DNA from: Streptomyces tubercidicus
GTDB lineage: Bacteria; Actinomycetota; Actinomycetes; Streptomycetales; Streptomycetaceae
Assembly (NCBI RefSeq): GCF_027497495.1
Contig: NZ_CP114205.1
Location: 5,952,001 to 6,016,000, forward strand
Length of the DNA stretch: 64,000 nt
Reading direction: 5' to 3'
This document shows positions 12,136-21,007 of this stretch, in pieces (within the stretch, counting starts at the first letter, position 1; each line of letters begins with the position of its first letter). Both the position numbers and the translations under genes were made by a program. The notes beneath the pieces are model-generated. The model had not been told where the DNA came from. It worked only from the letters and a program-made list of their open reading frames with translations, and ran no database searches.

Positions 12136-12509
12136 CTCTCACTGCCGCCCGCCGACACCACGGCGGCAATCGATCACTGGCCCTGGCGGACAGTCAGAGG
12201 GCATCGGGTCCGATCTTAGAAGGGCGATCCCGGCCCCTCCGTCGGATAGGTGACCACGCCGCCAACTCGGTCCGGCGCGACGCCCGTTCGGTGTGAGCGC
12301 AGCAGGACAGGCTGCGGGTTATCCCGGTGCGGTGGGTGATCGCGCTGTTACAGTCCGGTCGCCCGCGACTAGGTCAGTTGCCTTGAGTTCCGACTTCCCA
12401 GGGTCAGCACCTGTTCACTTCCGACGCATCGGTCGACTTCGGTTAACTCCTGCGCCAATGGCACGTGCGCTTCTACGATGTTCGCTCGGCTCAAATCCTC
12501 TGGAGCACC

Positions 12510-14663
12510 ATGCGCCTCGAACACATCAGGATTGATAACTTCCGCGGGCTGAGCCACGTGGACATGCCCTTCTCCCGGTTCGGCTGCCTCATCGGCGAGA
12601 ACAATGCTGGGAAGTCCTCGGTGTTCCAGGCCCTCAACATGTTCCTTCGCTCAGGATCTGCGGTCGACACCGACTTCTTGAACCCGGCGCGACCCATCCG
12701 CATCCAGCTCAGCTTCGCCGGTGTCGATGCGGCAGATCTGCAGCGTCTTGAGGACGGTCACCGCTCACGTATCGGGCCTGTGGTTGAGGATGGACGTCTC
12801 ACCCTGGTGCGGACGTACGAGGGAGTCGGCAAGGGCTCGATGAAGGTAGTCCGGAAAGTCCCGAGCGACCCGCGCTTCCATAAGAAGGTTTTGGAGGAGG
12901 TAATCAGGCCCAAGATCTCTGCCGAGGAGCTTGAGGCGAACGTCCAGCGCACCTATCCGGGGATCTTCGCCAAACTTTCCGGCAAGATCACCCGTTCTGC
13001 TGTGAGACGGCAATGGGACGAAGACGTCGCTAATCTCAAGGACAGTGAATACACCACGGGCGACGATCCGCTGATGACCGGCTTGGACAAGTCGGTTGCT
13101 CCGCTGCTACCAGAGCCGATCTACATCCCGGCTGTGAAGGAACTCAACGAAGATCTCAAGACGACCTCGACAGCGACATTCGGACGTCTGCTGTCCATCC
13201 TGTTCGGAGATATCAAGCATCAACTACCGCAACTGGAAGCCTCCTTCGAACAGCTTCGGAACCAGCTGAACGTCGTTTCACGGGAGGACGGCAGCGAGTC
13301 GGACGGTCGGCTGCCGGAGGTACGGAAGATCGAGTCGCTGATCCAACGAAACCTCCAGGACTCCTTCCCTCGTGCCAGCGTTCGCCTGGAGATTCCCCCG
13401 CCGCGCCTGCGTAGCCTGCTGGAAGAGGCGCAGATCGCTGTAAACGACGGCATCAGCGGCCCGTTCAAGACCAAGGGCGACGGCCTGCGTCGGTCAGTGG
13501 CGTTTGCCCTCCTGCGCGCCTACGTAGACCTGAAGACCGCAGAGCCGACCCAGTCGGACAGCGCCCAGCAGCCTTCTCTGCTGCTGTTCGAGGAGCCCGA
13601 GGTGTTTCTGCATCCGCAGGCACAGCGCAAACTCTTCGAGGCCCTGACCATGTTCTCCGGCTTCAACGATGTGCTGGTCAGCACACACTCGTCGGCCTTC
13701 TGTGCGCCCGGCGTGACCGGCACCTTTGTGAAGGTCGTCAAGGACCACACGTTGGAACCGCCAGCCAGCCGGACTTGTGTGATCGACCTGTCAGACATGG
13801 ACGCCCGCGATCAGTTCGAGATCATCACGCACGAGAACAACGAGGCAGCTTTCTTCGCCACCTCAGTGCTCCTCGTGGAAGGCCCTAGCGACCGCACTCT
13901 CATCCCTCACATCGCGCGTACCCTCAGCCCGCGGTGGGACTTCGACAAGCACGGTGCGGCGATCGCCAAGGTCGAAGGCAAAGGCAGCATCGAGCGGTAC
14001 CGCGGCTTCTTCCAGCGCTTCGAGATGCGAGTCGCGGTCGTCGCGGACCTGGACGCCGTGCTCGACGGGTTCGACAAACTTGGTGCGAGCGACGAGTGTC
14101 ACCGATTGCGTGACCGGGTTGTCACTAAGGTCAACGAACTGGTGGAGGACGAGGACGTCAACGTATCCGCTAGCACTCTCAAGAGCCTCAGCAAAAGCGG
14201 CAGCGCACGCGCTCTGTGGGAGCATGCGCAGCTCAAGAGCGAAGAGTACGCCCGAGGGCTATGCGAGTTCGAGGAAGTGGATGCAGCAGTGAGAGCGTTC
14301 TTCGCCCGCTCCGCTTCCGGCGCCGCTCGACGGATCCTCGCAGAAGCCAAAGATCCGGAGCTGAAGAAGATGAAGTTGGAGCTGCTGCGGATGCTTCGTC
14401 ACGAGGACGTCTACGTCTGGGAGCGCGGGGCAATCGAGGCGTACTACCCCGAGCTCCAGGTAAACGAGTCGAACAATAAGAACGACCGGGCCCGCACGTT
14501 CTGCGAGCGCTACACAACCGCCGAGGCCATTCGTGGGCTGCCCGTGTTCGAGGAAACGACAGCTTGCGAGTTCGATTTCATCTTCGAGGCTTTCTTTGGG
14601 ACGTCACCACTGCAGCCAGCAGCAGTTGAGGCTCCCCACCAAGCGACGGCGAGCAACGGGTAA
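12510..14663 (+). CDS. OLD-family ATP-dependent endonuclease (ABC ATPase + TOPRIM)
   Basis: A 717-aa single-chain class 1 OLD-type protein. An N-terminal ABC/SMC-like ATPase has Walker A GENNAGKSS (K35), Walker B LLLFEEPEVFLHPQ (E361/E362) and the LVSTHSS histidine switch. The C-terminal TOPRIM nuclease has E457 in LLVEGPSDRTLIP and the DxD pair D513/D515 in VVADLDAVLDG. OLD proteins are nucleases used in phage-phage exclusion and anti-phage defence (P2 Old; GajA of Gabija). No GajB-type UvrD helicase, retron or other partner is adjacent, so it would act alone. The codon use is less GC-biased than the flanking core genes, which suggests transfer. ATG 12510 gives the canonical MRLEHIRIDNFRG start. 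An upstream in-frame ATG (12465) would add 15 unconserved residues. Confidence 0.9.
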   Translation: MRLEHIRIDNFRGLSHVDMPFSRFGCLIGENNAGKSSVFQALNMFLRSGSAVDTDFLNPARPIRIQLSFAGVDAADLQRLEDGHRSRIGPVVEDGRLTLVRTYEGVGKGSMKVVRKVPSDPRFHKKVLEEVIRPKISAEELEANVQRTYPGIFAKLSGKITRSAVRRQWDEDVANLKDSEYTTGDDPLMTGLDKSVAPLLPEPIYIPAVKELNEDLKTTSTATFGRLLSILFGDIKHQLPQLEASFEQLRNQLNVVSREDGSESDGRLPEVRKIESLIQRNLQDSFPRASVRLEIPPPRLRSLLEEAQIAVNDGISGPFKTKGDGLRRSVAFALLRAYVDLKTAEPTQSDSAQQPSLLLFEEPEVFLHPQAQRKLFEALTMFSGFNDVLVSTHSSAFCAPGVTGTFVKVVKDHTLEPPASRTCVIDLSDMDARDQFEIITHENNEAAFFATSVLLVEGPSDRTLIPHIARTLSPRWDFDKHGAAIAKVEGKGSIERYRGFFQRFEMRVAVVADLDAVLDGFDKLGASDECHRLRDRVVTKVNELVEDEDVNVSASTLKSLSKSGSARALWEHAQLKSEEYARGLCEFEEVDAAVRAFFARSASGAARRILAEAKDPELKKMKLELLRMLRHEDVYVWERGAIEAYYPELQVNESNNKNDRARTFCERYTTAEAIRGLPVFEETTACEFDFIFEAFFGTSPLQPAAVEAPHQATASNG

Positions 14664-14784: not shown

Positions 14785-15315
14785 TCAGCCCTGCCTGTGC
14801 TTGACCGAAGACAGCGCCACCACGAGTGCGTCCAGGTCTCCGGTACAGACGATGACCTCTTCATCGTCGCCCGGGGGGTCGAATCGGGCGAAGAAGTCGT
14901 CAAGGGCTTCGGGGGTGACGGTGAGAGCGTTGGCGTCCTCGCGCTGGTTGCGCTCGGCGAGGCGTCCCAGCAGCTCCTCCCTGCCGGCAGGGAGGTAGAC
15001 CACGACCGGGTAGCCGCCCGCTTCGCGGGCAGCCTGACGCCAGGCGTCGCGCTCTGAGAGCCGCCACAGCCCGTGGTCCAGGACGACGTCGTTCCCGGCC
15101 TCCAGCTCCTTGACGAACCGTGCCCGGACCGCCTCGACCACGGGCCGTTCGCGCTCGAAGTAGGTGTGCTCGGGATAGTCCACGCCGTATCGGCCGTGGA
15201 GGCGGTGCACCTCCTCGTCCACGGACAGTCGCGTGTAGCCGTGGTCGGCCAGGGCTTGGGCGACGGTGGTCTTCCCGGAGCCGGTAATACCGGCCAGGAG
15301 AACGGCGAGGGGCAC
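14785..15315 (-). CDS. P-loop kinase-like AAA protein
   Basis: A 176-aa small-molecule or nucleic-acid kinase-like ATPase. Walker A is GITGSGKTT at residues 9-17. An aspartate follows in RLSVDEEVHRLHG, and VVLDHGLW gives a Walker-B-like strand. GRLAERNQRED is an arginine-rich lid. This is the layout of the Zeta/PNK-like predicted kinases. No antitoxin is adjacent. It lies 39 nt downstream of the glycosyltransferase operon in the same direction and may be its last gene. The substrate is unknown. Confidence 0.8.
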   Translation of the reverse strand: MPLAVLLAGITGSGKTTVAQALADHGYTRLSVDEEVHRLHGRYGVDYPEHTYFERERPVVEAVRARFVKELEAGNDVVLDHGLWRLSERDAWRQAAREAGGYPVVVYLPAGREELLGRLAERNQREDANALTVTPEALDDFFARFDPPGDDEEVIVCTGDLDALVVALSSVKHRQG

Positions 15316-15354
15316 GCGGTCATCCCTTCCACGAGGAGCTGTGCGTGGGCGCCT

Positions 15355-16230
15355 TCATTGTCTCCAATTCTGCTGGTGCGCGACGTGCGGTCGCCAGGCC
15401 GTGACGATGCTGCGGGCCTCGCTGGGCCAGTTGAACGGCATGCGGTCCAGGCTCACCCGGCGGAAAGCGAACCGCGGATCGCTGGTGTTGATCACGCCGC
15501 CGTGTCGGCCGACGTGCGACAGGAGGCGGCCGGCCTCGTCGCGCACGGACGGGGTCTCTTCCTGCCATGTGCCGGTCGAGAAGTGCTTGACCCGGCGGCG
15601 GAGGTCATCCAGGACGCCCGAGCGCCACTTGAAGTGGTGAACCGCGCAGATGCGGTCGGCATCCGGCCGGTGCCCAGGGGCCCTGTGGTTGCCGCCCGCC
15701 ACGGTGACATCGTGGCGGGCGAGCACGATCTTGCGCGGGTCTCCGTGCAGGAGTCGGTGGGTGAGGTGCCCGCCGAGGGGATAGGCGAGGTCCAGTCCGC
15801 CTTCGGGCCGCCAGCCGGTCAGGCGCCCGCTCGCGGAGATCCGGTCGAGCATCAGGCCGCCCACCACGCGGTGCCCGGACTTCTCGGCCTGGGCGATCAC
15901 CTCACCCAGTGGGGCGGGGTACTGCTGGAACTCGTCAGCGTCGGCGAGCAGGTGCCAGCCCGGGCCGGCCCGGTGCCGCAGGGCGTCTCTGAGCTGGGTG
16001 TTGGTGCGCTCGTGCCACGGGCCGGTGCTGGTGCCGGTGGGGATGATGCCCAGTTCGCGGCTGGCGGCCTGGAGTTCGTGCCGCTGCTGGTCGGGCACGT
16101 GCTCGGGGAAGTGGAAGGCGATCAGGAATCGCTCGACACCCAGCCACCGGTAGTGGCGGACCCAGGCGGCCAGCAGGGCGGGTTCTACGGGGCCGACGAT
16201 GGCGATCAGCGCGGGAGGGGTGCTCAGCAT
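15355..16230 (-). CDS. GT-A glycosyltransferase, GT92/DUF23-like
   Basis: A 291-aa protein with the logic of GT92-type enzymes. ALIAIVGPVEPALLAAWVRHYRWLGVERFLIAFHF at the N-terminus matches the family's 'leave the desk and walk' strand-helix start. HLLADADEFQQYP contains the metal-binding DxD plus the EF pair typical of the group. The C-terminal part has VHHFKWR and other histidine-rich motifs. There is no signal peptide or membrane segment. Its ATG lies inside the stop of the upstream glycosyltransferase (ATGCTGA), so it is the fourth gene of a tightly coupled operon. Acceptor and product are unknown. Confidence 0.75.
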   Translation of the reverse strand: MLSTPPALIAIVGPVEPALLAAWVRHYRWLGVERFLIAFHFPEHVPDQQRHELQAASRELGIIPTGTSTGPWHERTNTQLRDALRHRAGPGWHLLADADEFQQYPAPLGEVIAQAEKSGHRVVGGLMLDRISASGRLTGWRPEGGLDLAYPLGGHLTHRLLHGDPRKIVLARHDVTVAGGNHRAPGHRPDADRICAVHHFKWRSGVLDDLRRRVKHFSTGTWQEETPSVRDEAGRLLSHVGRHGGVINTSDPRFAFRRVSLDRMPFNWPSEARSIVTAWRPHVAHQQNWRQ

Positions 16231-17459
16231 CGGGACTCCTTCGTACACAGTGAGGAGAAGGTTCGGGTGAGGAAGCCGGCCTGCTCGGCGGCCGATCGCA
16301 TCCCCAGCAGGCCGGGAGCTTCGGGGCCGGGCAGCGGAGGTGGCTGGCGGACGACGGTATGCAGAGCTTCGGCGAGGGCGGCCGGGTCGCCGGCGGGGAA
16401 CGTAAGGGCCCAAGGCTGGCTGCGAAGACGGGCGGTGAGGGCGGGGTCGTGGTCGGAGACGACCAGGGGAACCCCGAGGCGGGCGGCGTCCATGGCGAGC
16501 CCGGACTCCTTGCCGGTCCCGCGGTGGCGGGTGACGAGGGCGGCGTCGGCGGCGGCGTACACGAGCCGCAGTACGGCTTCGCTGACCGGGCCGGGCACGG
16601 TGTGCACCCGCAGGCCGGGCTGGGCTCGCCACCGCTGGAGGAGGGCTTCGTCGAGTGGGAAACCGGTGACCACCAGGTGCAGGGGCTCCTTGAGCCGGGA
16701 CAGGGCGGCGTCGATGACGGCGATGTCCTTGTAGGGCCACCACCCGCCCACGAGGCACACCACGGCCTCGGCGGAGGGGATGCCGAACGCGGCACGGCCG
16801 CCCTCGCGTTCGCCTGCGGTCAGGCGGTGGCCGTCATCGACCGAGAAGCCGCCGACCACGGCGGGCAGGCGGGGGAAGGCCGCGGCGAACTGGTCGGCGA
16901 CAGCCTGTGTCGGATACACCGCGATCACCCGCCCTTCGCCCTGGCGGGCGAGCCGGCCGAGCATCCGCACGACGGCGTCCTCGTCGGTGACCGCCTCGTG
17001 GACGAACCGCAGGTGTGGCTGGTCACCCAGGAGGGCGGCAGCTCCGTGTAGAGCCTCGCTGGCGGTCAGGATCACCACCGCGTCGGCCCGGGACTCCAGC
17101 CGACGCGCGGTCCGCAACGCTGCCCCTTCGGTGAGGCAGCGGGCGATGAGGGTGACCTGGTGCGGCAACCGCCGCATCCGGCGGGGCCAGCGGCGCGACC
17201 GGAGCAATCGCTGTCCGGCCGCGGAGATGCTGGCTGCCAGCCGGGAGGCGACCAGCAGGACGCACGCCTGATGCCCAGACGGTCCGGTGACCAACCGGGC
17301 CCCCGCCTCACGCAGGGCGTCGACCGTCTCGGTTGCAATCCCGTGCGGGGCGATGACCAGGCTGCCGGGTCGGACTCTGGCGAGGACTACCAGCGTGCGC
17401 TGGTGATGCCCGCCCAGGCGGTTCGCGTACGGCTCGATGAGAACGAGCGGGCCGGTCAT
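16224..17459 (-). CDS. glycosyltransferase, GT4/GT-B type
   Basis: A 411-aa GT-B fold protein. The N-terminal MTGPLVLIEPYANRLGGHHQ has the glycine-rich loop of GT4 enzymes. The C-terminal domain holds VVCLVGGWWPYKDIAVIDAAL, HLVVTGFPLDEALL and a GKESGLAMDAARLGVPLVVSDHDP segment in the donor-binding E-x7-E region. It overlaps the upstream gene by 4 nt (ATGA) and the downstream gene by 7 nt, so all are probably translated together. The donor sugar and the modified molecule are not predictable. Confidence 0.8.
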   Translation of the reverse strand: MTGPLVLIEPYANRLGGHHQRTLVVLARVRPGSLVIAPHGIATETVDALREAGARLVTGPSGHQACVLLVASRLAASISAAGQRLLRSRRWPRRMRRLPHQVTLIARCLTEGAALRTARRLESRADAVVILTASEALHGAAALLGDQPHLRFVHEAVTDEDAVVRMLGRLARQGEGRVIAVYPTQAVADQFAAAFPRLPAVVGGFSVDDGHRLTAGEREGGRAAFGIPSAEAVVCLVGGWWPYKDIAVIDAALSRLKEPLHLVVTGFPLDEALLQRWRAQPGLRVHTVPGPVSEAVLRLVYAAADAALVTRHRGTGKESGLAMDAARLGVPLVVSDHDPALTARLRSQPWALTFPAGDPAALAEALHTVVRQPPPLPGPEAPGLLGMRSAAEQAGFLTRTFSSLCTKESRC

Positions 17460-18160
17460 CCGGCCACCGCCTGGTCTCCGTGGGCGGTGGTGAACCTGGC
17501 CCGCAGCCAGGCAGGGTCATTGAGATGGCCGAACCGCTGCGGGGCGCAGGCGGCTTCGCGGGCGAAAGCGACGCCATCCCGGGCTCCGGTGGCCGCGTAG
17601 GCGGCGAACTCGCCGCTGTGACTGGTCGTCCACGCCTCCACCCGTCGGCGGGCGTCGTCGTCGGCCATCCCGTACTCGCTGCCGCGGGCGAGCATCGCGC
17701 ACTCGCGGAAACCGGCCTTCCACGCGTGGAAGGGGCTCTGGTTGAACCTCGTGATCCCCGCGGTCTGCTGGGCGAACTCGATCCGTCCGGGCAGGGCGGC
17801 GAGCACATCCACGGCCTCTCCCATCTCGCGCAGGGCACTGCGGCGGATGAGCTTGAGCCCGCCGTAGCCGTAGGTCAAACCGTTGACCGGGTTGACCGCC
17901 CGCCACACCCGCATCGACGCGCCCTCGTCCAGCGGCTCCACCGAGGCGGGGTCGAAGCCGGTGTCGATGGCAAAGTCTCCGTCGGCTAGGAAGAACTGCT
18001 CGTGGTCGACGACCTCGGCACACAGACGGTAGGCCCGACGCATCCCGTGTACGCCGTGCAGACGCTTGACCGCCCCGCCGAGCGTGCGCTGGAGCCGGGA
18101 GTGCAGAGAGGTGGCCATCGGCTCGTCGTACGAGAGGAGAACCGCGTCGAAGCTGTTCAC
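17456..18160 (-). CDS. GT-A-like protein of a phage-associated family
   Basis: A 234-aa protein. LLSYDEPMATSLHSRLQ, KRLHGVHGMRRAYRLCAEV, QFFLADGDFAID (DxD-like) and NPVNGLTYGYGGLKLIRR match, from memory, a domain seen in large tailed phages and scattered bacterial glycosyltransferases, in which a VDxD strand precedes NPVNGLxYGYGGVKL. The role is probably glycosyl transfer, but no family member's function is known to me. The start is GTG at 18160 (VNSFDAVLLSYDEP), overlapping the upstream stop by 4 nt. Its own stop overlaps the next gene by 4 nt (ATGA). It is the second gene of the operon. Confidence 0.65.
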   Translation of the reverse strand: MNSFDAVLLSYDEPMATSLHSRLQRTLGGAVKRLHGVHGMRRAYRLCAEVVDHEQFFLADGDFAIDTGFDPASVEPLDEGASMRVWRAVNPVNGLTYGYGGLKLIRRSALREMGEAVDVLAALPGRIEFAQQTAGITRFNQSPFHAWKAGFRECAMLARGSEYGMADDDARRRVEAWTTSHSGEFAAYAATGARDGVAFAREAACAPQRFGHLNDPAWLRARFTTAHGDQAVAG

Positions 18161-19314
18161 GAGACGGCCTCCAGGTAGCGGGCCGCGATCAGGGCGGGGG
18201 TGAAGTCGGCGGTGGAGGTGTGAGCCCGCTTTGCGTGCAGGGCATGGAATTCGGTGTCCGTGGCGAGCCGTTCGGCCAAGGCGACGGCCTCGGCCGGGGT
18301 GGTGAAGCACAGCTCGGGGTCGATGTGCTCGGCGAGCCAGCCAAGGCGGGGCGAGATGACCGGAAGGCCCATGCCCTGGCAGTCGATCACGCTCATGGAC
18401 CAGGGACAGCCCGGCCGGAACGGGGCGATGCCGAAGCGCGCGCCGGCCAGGAGTTCCTTGTAGCGGACGCGGTCGCCCCGGTCGGAGACGACCTGCACGT
18501 GCGGCAGGGCGGCGAGCTGGTCACGCATCTTCTCGGGGCTGTCGTCCAGACCCTTGCGCTCCGCCCGGCGCTGGCCGAATAGGTCCATGACCCGCAGTTT
18601 GACGGTGCCGGACGCGACCAGGTCGCGGGCCAGGTCCACGAACTGCCCGGTGCCGTAGTGCGCGTACAGCCGGTGGTTGTAGACGCCGATCGCCCCGGCG
18701 CCGGAGGCGGGCCGCGTGGTGGCGGGGTCGCGTACCAGACGCTCGTCACGCGGGGCAGGCACCACTCGCAGCTTCCCGCCAAGGTCCAGAGTGGTCCGGG
18801 CGGCCGCCGCCGACACCCAGGACGCCGCCGTGGAGGAGTGGACCAGCACTCGGTCACAGGCGGCCAGTCCGGCAGCGAACGCCAGCAGTACCGGCCGTCC
18901 GAGCGCCGCGTCGTTCAGGGACGGGTCGAGTTGAAGCTGGCCGCCGCCCGTGAAGGAGAACGGCAGGTAGTGGCAGTAGCCGGCCAGTAGGGCGTTGGAT
19001 CCGGCCTCCAGTAAGGCCGTGCGGATCGCCGGGGCCTCCTCGATCTGATTGGCCACGACCACGTCGGGCTTCTCCGCCCGGATCGGTGCCACCAGCTCGT
19101 CGATGTCCGCGGAGAAGCGGGCCCGGTACTTCGTCCCCGGCACCTTCGTCCGGTGGAATCCGCAGCGTGCATCCCCGGCCGGAGCCGGGGCCGCGACCGT
19201 CACCTCCGCTCCGGCATCCGCCAGCGCTGGGGCAAGCAGGTCCGCGAAGATCCACCCTGAGTCGGCCGAAAGCCGGTCGGGGTTGGAGATGTTGAGCAAG
19301 TAGAGCACGCGCAT
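18157..19314 (-). CDS. glycosyltransferase, GT-B type (first gene of operon)
   Basis: A 385-aa protein that begins MRVLYLLNISNPDRLSADSG, a GT4-like N-terminal Rossmann strand. The C-terminal domain shows LRVMDLFGQRRAERKG, VVSDRGDRVRYKELLAGARFGIAPFRPGCPWSMSVIDCQGMGLPVISP, the usual donor-site region where transferases of this class recognise the nucleotide sugar. AAGGAGG lies 9 nt before ATG 19314. It heads a four-gene overlapping operon and is divergent from the HTH/deformylase pair, with 140 bp between them. It may share regulation with that pair. Confidence 0.78.
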   Translation of the reverse strand: MRVLYLLNISNPDRLSADSGWIFADLLAPALADAGAEVTVAAPAPAGDARCGFHRTKVPGTKYRARFSADIDELVAPIRAEKPDVVVANQIEEAPAIRTALLEAGSNALLAGYCHYLPFSFTGGGQLQLDPSLNDAALGRPVLLAFAAGLAACDRVLVHSSTAASWVSAAAARTTLDLGGKLRVVPAPRDERLVRDPATTRPASGAGAIGVYNHRLYAHYGTGQFVDLARDLVASGTVKLRVMDLFGQRRAERKGLDDSPEKMRDQLAALPHVQVVSDRGDRVRYKELLAGARFGIAPFRPGCPWSMSVIDCQGMGLPVISPRLGWLAEHIDPELCFTTPAEAVALAERLATDTEFHALHAKRAHTSTADFTPALIAARYLEAVS

Positions 19315-19397
19315 GGTGCTTCGCCTCCTTCATCCGCCCGGGGGTCGATCCGGGCCAGTAAGGGAAGGAAAGCGGCGACGTAGGCCGTGACGGGATG

Positions 19398-19422
19398 GTG
19401 AACTTGGATCACTCACGGTTCA
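19398..19422. promoter_or_regulatory. inverted repeats in the divergent promoter between GT operon and HTH gene
   Basis: TGAAC (19399-19403) and GTTCA (19418-19422) are inverted around 14 nt. A second repeat, GTGA-n7-TCAC (19398-19412), overlaps the first. They sit in the 140-bp space between the divergent starts at 19314 and 19455. A regulator such as the adjacent HTH protein could bind here. Support is positional only. Confidence 0.35.
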
Positions 19423-19454: not shown

Positions 19455-20426
19455 ATGGAAGCGCAAGGCGAGGAGATCACCGCCGAGCAGGCGGCCGAGG
19501 ACTACGCAGCCGAGGTGGCGCGCTGGCGGGAAGTACGCGGCATGTCCAAGAGGGCGTTGGCGCTGGCCATGGGCTTCGACCCGTCCTACGTCAGCCACGT
19601 GGAGTCGGGCCGCCACAAGCCCAGCGAGGAGTTCTCACGTCTCGCCGACGAGGCACTGAACGCCGGGAAGGCGATCTGGAGACGCTGGTGCGACTATGAG
19701 CAGGCAAAAGCTCGTAACCGGCGGCCGGCGGCGCCGCCCGCCCAGCGCGGGCCCGACCAGCCGTATGCGACCGGATCGGCCCTCGTCGTCGAACACGACG
19801 CGGCACGGCTCCAGTACGACGGCACCTCGTACCGGCTGACCATGCGCCGACGGCTGCGGAACACCGGCGAGGAACCGGTGACCCGCTACCTGATCCGTAT
19901 CTCCGTGGACCGCTACCCCGGCGACCCTGAGCAATCGAACGCGCACTACCGAGCCCACCCGCTGACCTGGGACGAACTCGACCTCACCGCCACCTGCCGC
20001 GGCGAGGCGATGCGGTGGCAGGCCAAGCACGACCGCGACGCTTTCAAGGAGGTGTGGCTGCTGTTCGACAACGAGCACGGCCGCTTCCCCCTCTACCCCG
20101 GCGAGTCCGTGTGGATCGAGTACGCCTACACCGTCGGCGATGACAAGTGGGGCAACTGGTTCCAGCGAGCCGTCCGCCTGCCCACCGAACAACTCGAAGT
20201 CCAGCTCGCCTTCCCTGCCGCCCTTGACCCCGTCGTGTGGGGCACCGAGACTTCCATGACCGCCGAAGCCTCCCCGCTGCGAACCCCTCCCGTCCGCAGC
20301 GACGACGGTGAACTACGGCAATTCACGTGGATCACGACTACACCGGCCCTGCACGCTCGGTACCGTCTGGAGTGGCGGTTTCGGGCACGGACCGAACGCG
20401 ACTCAGATCAAGGGGAGTTCAGGTGA
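19455..20426 (+). CDS. HTH (XRE-type) protein with novel C-terminal beta-rich domain
   Basis: A 323-aa two-part protein. Residues 20-75 form an XRE helix-turn-helix (VARWREVRGMSKRALALAMGFDPSYVSHVESGRHKPS). A linker rich in Ala and Pro follows. The remaining 220 residues alternate hydrophobic strands with many aromatic and charged residues (RYLIRISVDRYPGDPEQ, EVWLLFDNEHGRFPLYPGESVWIEYAYTVG). I do not recognise this domain. It could sense a ligand or peptide. The gene's stop overlaps the start of the peptide deformylase (GTGA), so the two products are made in fixed ratio. It is divergent from the glycosyltransferase operon. Confidence 0.75.
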   Translation: MEAQGEEITAEQAAEDYAAEVARWREVRGMSKRALALAMGFDPSYVSHVESGRHKPSEEFSRLADEALNAGKAIWRRWCDYEQAKARNRRPAAPPAQRGPDQPYATGSALVVEHDAARLQYDGTSYRLTMRRRLRNTGEEPVTRYLIRISVDRYPGDPEQSNAHYRAHPLTWDELDLTATCRGEAMRWQAKHDRDAFKEVWLLFDNEHGRFPLYPGESVWIEYAYTVGDDKWGNWFQRAVRLPTEQLEVQLAFPAALDPVVWGTETSMTAEASPLRTPPVRSDDGELRQFTWITTTPALHARYRLEWRFRARTERDSDQGEFR

Positions 20427-21007
20427 TTGACGTGCGGCCCAGCCAGCAGATGCGAGACCTCGGCGTCGTCCAACACGGTGCCGGCATCCTCACCGAACCA
20501 GCCCGCGCCTTCGACCTGCCCGCCGAACGCGACGAGGCAGAGCGCATCACAGACGAGCTCTTCGCCGCCATGGAACGGATCGGCCAGGTCCACCCCTTCG
20601 CCAAGGGAATGGGTATCGCGGCCCCGCAGATCGGTATCGCACGCGCCGCTGCGGTCGTACAACCGCCTGGCGACGCACCCGCGATCATCCTCCTCAACCC
20701 AAAGATCACCACCCGGTCCGGCAAGGTGGACGAGCACTACGAGGGTTGCCTGAGCTTCTTCGACGTTCGCGGCCTCGTCCCGCGCCCCCTGAAGATCACT
20801 GTCGAGACCACCGCCCTGGCCGGCGAGACCGTGACCACTGTGTACGAGCGTGGCCTCGCCAGACTCATCCACCACGAGGTCGACCACCTCGATGGCTTGC
20901 TCTACACCGCCCGCATGCGGACTGGTGTCGCACCGATCCCCGTGGAGGAGTACCGGCAGACCGGCCAGGCATGGGCTTATGACGGCACAGCCCGACCGGA
21001 AGCGTGA
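20423..21007 (+). CDS. accessory peptide deformylase
   Basis: A 194-aa metalloprotease-fold deformylase that removes the formyl group from N-formyl-methionine peptides. All three active-site motifs are intact: GMGIAAPQ (residues 62-69), EGCLS (107-111, metal Cys109) and HEVDH (151-155, His/Glu/His). The start is GTG 20423, overlapping the upstream stop by 4 nt. Because housekeeping def genes are not normally coupled to an HTH gene inside a genomic island, this copy is probably specialised, for example for a peptide product, resistance to deformylase inhibitors or an immunity role. Which of these applies cannot be decided from sequence. Confidence 0.88.
   Translation: MIDVRPSQQMRDLGVVQHGAGILTEPARAFDLPAERDEAERITDELFAAMERIGQVHPFAKGMGIAAPQIGIARAAAVVQPPGDAPAIILLNPKITTRSGKVDEHYEGCLSFFDVRGLVPRPLKITVETTALAGETVTTVYERGLARLIHHEVDHLDGLLYTARMRTGVAPIPVEEYRQTGQAWAYDGTARPEA

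Follow-up and report, generated by a model that had tools for sequence, protein, structure and literature searches.

What does an accessory peptide deformylase (PDF) do when its gene is coupled to that of a DNA-binding protein? The question is raised by a locus of Streptomyces tubercidicus, which was analysed within a window of 64,000 nucleotides, corresponding to bases 5,952,001-6,016,000 of the 8.28-Mb single-contig genome. A preliminary description of this DNA had reported a helix-turn-helix (HTH) gene whose stop overlaps the start of a PDF gene by 4 nt, and had proposed that the pair shares divergent control with a set of glycosyltransferases, as one system that may act on formylated peptides. 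The gene coordinates and the overlap proved exact. The two genes do form a unit, but the unit is larger than described, as it takes in a five-gene divergent operon (14785-19314). The features of the locus are the following.

14785..15315, minus strand: P-loop kinase AAA_33, cluster C6 (PF13671, E 3.3e-24)
15355..16230, minus strand: family-2 glycosyltransferase, cluster C5 (PF13704)
16224..17459, minus strand: glycosyltransferase group 1, cluster C4 (PF13692)
17456..18160, minus strand: 234-aa protein, cluster C3 (no Pfam match for the longer frame P0004)
18157..19314, minus strand: glycosyltransferase (GT4/GT1-like), cluster C2, first gene of the divergent operon (first divergent gene in 51 loci)
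19399..19422, plus strand: operator-like site TGAACTTGGATCACTCACGGTTCA between the divergent genes (conserved pattern)
19455..20426, plus strand: P0001, gene of the HTH + beta-saddle regulator (323 aa)
19503..19685, plus strand: HTH_31 / Cro-C1-type DNA-binding domain, residues 17-77 (PF13560, E 5.9e-11)
19779..20384, plus strand: beta-saddle domain, residues ~109-310 (AF2, Foldseek, VIA-align; no Pfam match)
20423..20426, plus strand: GTGA, PDF start codon overlapping the HTH stop codon (4-nt overlap)
20423..21007, plus strand: P0002, accessory PDF gene (194 aa, GTG start)

The regulator and its deformylase

By domain score, P0001 belongs to the Cro/C1 (XRE) HTH regulators, with 43 bits for HTH_31 (PF13560) against a Pfam cut-off of 27 and 29.4 bits for HTH_3 against 23. 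P0002 reaches 109.9 bits with PF01327, for which the Pfam gathering cut-off is 22.8, and it retains, as had been described, all of its active-site motifs (GMGIAAPQ, EGCLS and HEVDH); by family and by the motifs GxGxAAxQ, EGCxS and HExDH it is a peptide deformylase. Since it passes the Pfam cut-off and falls below the curated NCBIfam ones (94.1 versus 103.95 for TIGR00079, 101.7 versus 125 for NF001159), P0002 can be assigned to a divergent PDF subfamily with intact motifs. Its accessory nature was confirmed, as the genome encodes three PDFs, namely P0002 and two others at 406,757 and 2,714,378.

The actinonin-contacting position was matched in these enzymes as the fifth residue after EGCxS (EGCxS+5), which we take to be position 97 of E. 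coli PDF. An Arg occupies it in 102 of 102 PDF hits, a set that includes the best 80 of 337 relatives of the regulator, whereas the two other PDFs of S. tubercidicus have Glu and Tyr. According to the available part of one survey, Arg97Tyr in the PDF of Vibrio cholerae leads to a higher actinonin MIC (PMC12690207), and this signature of Def2-type enzymes (Tyr for Arg at E. coli position 97) was absent from all 102 hits. Judged by this one residue, P0002 would be the most inhibitor-sensitive of the three PDFs of the genome, as expected of a sensor.

The beta-saddle domain

The C-terminal part of P0001 had been called unrecognised and beta-rich. No Pfam family was found for residues 98-323 at E up to 0.1, and structure prediction by AF2 (40 aligned sequences, 215 residues) bore out the beta-rich character with a mean pLDDT of 92.0 and a pTM of 0.87. 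The top PDB matches in Foldseek were M1 aminopeptidases (best E 7.5e-7). VIA-align placed ribophorin I/Ost1 first (Z 15.7, rmsd 4.1, 175 aligned), the putative protease 3kd4 second (Z 13.6) and the N-terminal domain of LTA4 hydrolase (LTA4H) third (Z 13.2, rmsd 3.2, 162 aligned). The M1_N-like fold was recognised with Z 12-13 over ~165 residues, a statement on fold only, and the identity to the fold relatives is ~10%. As modelled, the middle domain of P0001, ~205 residues long, has the fold of the M1-aminopeptidase N-domain and ribophorin I, a likeness that is no evidence of function. A search for sequence relatives with solved structure gave nothing convincing, with three matches (best E 0.0024), the top two of which are apparently designed proteins by name.

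In M1 enzymes, the beta-saddle domain stands before an HExxH catalytic domain. Its place before another HExxH enzyme, here the PDF, offers a parallel that is suggestive only; no Pfam peptidase M1 match was found in P0001 or P0002.

Fused and split forms of one module

The beta domain, scanned against 84,980 species genomes, has 337 relatives. The best 80 of these were analysed, so that close relatives are over-represented in the locus set, and all 80 came from Actinomycetota, judged by their record titles; viral contigs with a beta-domain match contributed 11 loci. Genes were called in 104 loci (the window, 12 plasmid stretches, the 80 genome loci and the 11 viral ones) with a caller trained on nine window genes, the predicted starts being approximate, and the main gene was absent from the calls at two of them (L070 and L098). 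In this set, which includes the best 80 of 337 relatives, 95 of the 102 loci with the main gene carry a full-length HTH-beta protein, a PDF lies within 2.5 kb by tblastn in 99 of 102, and all three catalytic motifs are present in 96 of those 99, the misses being L088 (at a contig end), L009 (followed by an IS3 element) and L089 (truncated). The fixed coupling proposed in the preliminary description is borne out by the 95 full-length loci, where HTH, beta domain and PDF are fused in 31, the PDF is called as the next gene in 60 and there is no PDF call in 4. The overlap, too, is more than chance, as 59 of 64 full-length split HTH-beta genes terminate in GTGA, ATGA or TTGA and many relatives are fused. 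A tblastn search of plasmids with P0001 yielded 21 records; in 14 of these, a single place spans 80% or more of the query. Several records have a ‘peptide deformylase’ annotation that extends over the HTH as a single gene. From these comparisons, the pair in the window is the split form of a protein that is fused in many relatives, among them most of the divergent ones. A tree of 107 beta domains, from which loci lacking a full beta domain were excluded, accounts for the fused or split state with 2 changes, one split and one re-fusion, the latter inside the split clade in the group of L005, L041 and L101 (clade support 100). The AF2 model of the fused protein (510 residues, mean pLDDT 80.6, pTM 0.47) has linkers of pLDDT <50 on both sides of the beta domain, at 89-106 and 311-324, and says nothing firm on the domain arrangement.

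A housekeeping role for the pair was considered and ruled out by its distribution together with the three PDFs of its own genome: full-length HTH-beta occurs in 19 of 199 Streptomyces genomes (a tally of 176 of 199 for P0001 consists mostly of matches to the HTH alone), and the beta domain at E up to 1e-10 in 3 of 396 genomes of the phylum. The two halves are also met apart. PDFs of the P0002 family exist without a full HTH-beta in 9 of 28 Streptomyces genomes, five of the nine adjoining beta remnants, and HTH-beta exists without a PDF at L157 and L113. The former of these (L157:9361-10332, genome G395) is a distant HTH-beta, with a beta domain 41% identical, that has neither PDF nor operator-like site, and its genome also contains a fused copy (L158). 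One orphan PDF of the P0002 family (L184:4241-4810) shows HDIDH in place of HE-DH, and some orphans of this kind may be decaying or altered. Another locus (L146, genome G159) comprises an intact-looking PDF with the tail of a beta domain only, in two copies near both ends of the chromosome contig.

A candidate operator

A binding site had been pointed out at 19398-19422. The pattern TGAN8CAYTCACNNTTCA has its sole exact match in the 8.28-Mb genome precisely there, at 19399-19422, with two one-mismatch matches elsewhere; when up to 2 mismatches are allowed, the window holds 2 matches versus 0.23 expected. Upstream of the HTH start, mostly no more than 65 nt away, loci of very different kinds have TGA-N8-CA(C/T)TCAC-..-TCA in common. 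A shorter form, TGAN7-9CA[CT]TCA[CT], read by eye from the same loci in which it was counted, is found in 78 of 95 upstreams versus a mean of 0.21 in first-order Markov controls, and in 33 of 44 non-redundant upstreams versus 0.17. In an enlarged set of 105 loci, 85 contain the full operator-like pattern, 12 the core only and 8 neither (L008, L009, L043, L113, L116, L157, L158 and L159). Among nine loci that lay outside the reading of the pattern, six carry it, and one is a duplicate of L129; the three without it include the two most divergent proteins.

When 21 relatives were searched, G000, G006 and G010 each gave a single exact match and the others none; of the 13 same-genus genomes in that set, these three are the ones with full-length HTH-beta. 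Its local occurrence, together with the HTH-beta gene, argues for a dedicated operator rather than a regulon site. We infer that 19399-19422 is a candidate dedicated operator of the HTH-beta regulator, to which the HTH would bind.

The divergent cargo

In 80 of 82 full-length cellular loci, a set that includes the best 80 of 337 relatives, the gene upstream of the regulator is transcribed divergently. In the cassette type of the window, C2 comes first in 51 loci, C2-C3-C4 stand in this order in 46 and C2-C6 are complete in 20; the C3 protein contains an LADGDF stretch and is glycosyltransferase-A-like by eye only. The C2 protein (E up to 1e-60) was detected in 15 of 199 Streptomyces genomes, 14 of which hold a full-length HTH-beta (Fisher p 1.5e-16, a value that ignores shared ancestry). 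The fifteenth genome, G158, has the whole C2-C6 cassette without HTH or PDF (L189:8817-13368). In the leader of the glycosyltransferase operon (19310-19375, minus strand), CCUUCC can pair with the GAAGGAGG Shine-Dalgarno region around an inner CCCGG hairpin; the hairpin is kept in an alignment of 12 sequences, with weak covariation (2 of 11 pairs changed on both sides), and could hide the ribosome site of the cargo.

The link between the pair and the glycosyltransferases thus stood, in 14 of 15 genomes. The further proposal of one pathway acting on formylated peptides did not, as cassettes of unrelated kinds are found opposite this regulator, which also occurs in prophages; for this reason the PDF goes with the regulator and not with glycosylation, and a simple glycosyltransferase-deformylase pathway is ruled out. 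With split regulators of the L091 type, the cargo comprises two Mur ligases, a D-Ala-D-Ala ligase, a PLP enzyme and a C39-like peptidase, and a fused regulator on a Nonomuraea plasmid faces a set of D-Ala ligase, dehydratase and peptidase. Elsewhere there are the 7-deazaguanine genes QueD, QueE, FolE and QueC with varied partners, ketosynthases with an AMP-binding protein, a GFO/IDH/MocA oxidoreductase with a DegT aminotransferase (sugar aminotransferase type), and a radical-SAM/glycosyltransferase set; an NRPS and an amino-acid racemase adjoin a truncated regulator copy.

When cargo labels in seven groups, one of them ‘none’, were placed on the tree, 18 changes were counted, below all of 200 shuffles, the labels resting on few signature proteins and ‘none’ (20 rows) meaning unclassified. 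The Mur/Ddl label accounts for 3 changes and 7-deazaguanine for 4. Two labels need qualification: L060 was labelled as glycosyltransferase by tblastn, and the operon called there is not an intact cassette, while L043 was labelled as phage by signature matches and is actually a plasmid. On this reconstruction, cargo is mostly inherited with the regulator yet exchanged at times.

Mobility and phage copies

On the right-hand side, 44 different neighbour clusters were found in 48 loci; therefore the module moves, and the pair has, at its many sites, no housekeeping location. The regulator occurs on Streptomyces chromosomes, on plasmids and in temperate-phage contigs. All 11 viral contigs carry the fused HTH-beta-PDF protein, 8 have an HK97-type capsid family, 8 a tyrosine integrase and 1 a TerL_ATPase match, and the neighbours of the regulator include a DnaB-like helicase, a DnaA-like ATPase and an FtsK/SpoIIIE-like protein. 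In 8 of 12 phage-type loci (the 11 viral ones and L120, which equals L131), the regulator follows a gene of its own orientation, so that the site can only be autoregulatory there. The setting suggests that the phage copies act as a lysogeny or early-region regulator. In deposited phage records, P0001 gave matches in 0 of 50,697 by tblastn.

In some phages (L132:11218-11838 and L128:11206-11817), the gene that overlaps the HTH-beta-PDF stop by 4 nt encodes a T5orf172/MUG113 domain, the L132 protein having in addition a weak sigma-70 region 4 match; a NUDIX protein takes the overlapping place in another (L137:11215-11616). As regards a role in defence, PADLOC matched P0001 only weakly, through its HTH (E 1.1e-4), and left P0002-P0007 without a match. 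Two other genes of the window did respond. An OLD-family AAA_15 + TOPRIM nuclease (12465-14663; PADLOC ‘Old’, E 2.9e-93) adjoins the glycosyltransferase cassette and is likely a stand-alone defence gene, in a lower-GC stretch. P0010 (22229-22816) matches TIR-TM of PADLOC over its first 97 residues (E 1.4e-15) and has no Pfam or NCBIfam family.

Proposed mechanism and alternative explanations

We lean, with some reserve, towards the view that the HTH-beta-PDF module is a mobile one-component switch, autorepressing and probably also repressing the divergent cargo, in which the PDF serves as sensor or trigger enzyme; the proposal is built on sequence comparison. The HTH would bind the operator-like site upstream of its own gene, repress its own promoter and probably also repress the divergent operon, which in the window encodes three or four glycosyltransferases and a kinase. 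The beta-saddle and the PDF would form the sensing half: a ligand, either an N-formyl peptide or a PDF inhibitor, bound or turned over in the PDF pocket would alter DNA binding, and the altered binding would switch the cargo on, as in bifunctional trigger enzymes. A wider version, in which the PDF is the ligand-sensing half of a repressor by which prophages, plasmids and cassettes of Actinomycetota read formyl-peptide levels (the translation state) or PDF-inhibiting antibiotics, and release cargo biosynthesis or lytic growth, is put forward only tentatively.

The main rival to the switch is a regulated spare PDF. Here the enzyme would be the effector, inducible against natural actinonin-like inhibitors or providing self-immunity, and HTH-beta would only autoregulate, which we regard as rather unlikely. 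Precedents exist in the available parts of two papers, where lydA, a PDF gene bordering the lydiamycin cluster, is suggested to confer self-immunity (PMC12130866) and actinonin susceptibility is reduced by accessory PDFs carried on mobile elements (PMC12690207). The PDFs kept without full HTH-beta in 9 of 28 Streptomyces genomes point the same way and, together with the HTH-beta proteins without PDF at L157 and L113, indicate that the enzyme may have value of its own. Sensing is nevertheless favoured over a spare enzyme, because a PDF chained to a repressor follows it through unrelated cargo and phages, and because the actinonin-contacting Arg is invariant where the other two PDFs of the host have Glu and Tyr; fusion to a DNA-binding domain and constancy across unrelated cargo and phages are unexpected of a resistance enzyme, and the Def2 Arg97Tyr resistance signature is lacking in all 102 hits.

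Two further explanations appear improbable. The PDF might be a processing enzyme of the cargo, deformylating cassette or phage proteins or a cassette intermediate, in keeping with the position of the pair beside the cargo and with the PDFs of marine phages known from the available text of PMC12690207; against this stand the single PDF subfamily that accompanies unrelated chemistries and phages and the cassette that can exist without a PDF in G158. With equally little likelihood, the beta-saddle alone would be the sensor and the PDF a tolerated passenger, as HTH-beta proteins lacking a PDF, the separate PDF of the split form and the low-confidence AF2 linkers could suggest. Such a passenger would hardly have persisted at 99 of 102 loci, with all three motifs intact in 96 of them, or have been fused again within the split clade (L005, L041 and L101).

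Relation to known systems

The proposed switch has relatives in arrangement among several known systems. The ImmR/ImmA modules of ICEs and prophages combine an XRE repressor with an HExxH metalloprotease. The module described here likewise couples an XRE-type HTH gene to the gene of an HExxH metal enzyme on mobile elements, but the metal enzyme is a PDF (PF01327), often fused, and there is an extra M1_N-like domain. The ImmA partner (Peptidase_M78) gave no match in P0001 or P0002, for which Pfam at E up to 0.1 yields only HTH and Pep_deformylase. In the trigger enzymes BirA, PutA and NadR, an enzyme and a DNA-binding domain are joined in one chain and the ligand state sets transcription. The fused HTH-beta-PDF protein joins an enzyme and a DNA-binding domain in the same way, and on the proposed reading would likewise switch with its ligand; we know of no PDF among trigger enzymes. 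The beta-saddle shares its fold with the N-domain of M1 aminopeptidases (LTA4H, ERAP1) and with ribophorin I/Ost1, but here it lies between HTH and PDF, with no M1 catalytic domain.

Other comparisons concern the enzyme. LydA, the stand-alone PDF of the lydiamycin cluster for which an immunity function is proposed in the available text of PMC12130866, is similarly an actinobacterial accessory PDF adjoining a biosynthetic operon, whereas the PDF described here is tied to an HTH regulator and common to many unrelated cassettes. The Def2-type PDFs of plasmids and integrons, as presented in the available text of PMC12690207, are also mobile accessory PDFs with all catalytic motifs, and they differ by the Arg97Tyr signature, absent here, and by the fusion of our PDF to HTH-beta or its coupling with it. 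In the available main text of that survey of accessory PDFs, the terms ‘HTH’, ‘helix-turn-helix’ and ‘transcriptional regulator’ are absent, and the PDF fusion described is def-fmt (PMC12690207). A full-text search of the literature found no description of an HTH-deformylase regulator. As a mobile genetic switch, the HTH-beta-PDF module looks undescribed; its parts are of known kinds (an XRE repressor, a PDF and an M1_N-like fold), and their arrangement resembles the HTH-plus-metalloenzyme modules of mobile elements.

Implications

If the proposed switch is real, it would provide a regulatory role for a family of accessory PDFs of Actinomycetota, enzymes for which resistance and immunity are mostly discussed. 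One repressor family would then be linked on one side with temperate phages and on the other with a series of small, uncharacterised biosynthetic cassettes. In that case, a single handle, consisting of one operator and one possible class of inducer, would be available to wake silent cassettes of differing chemistry.
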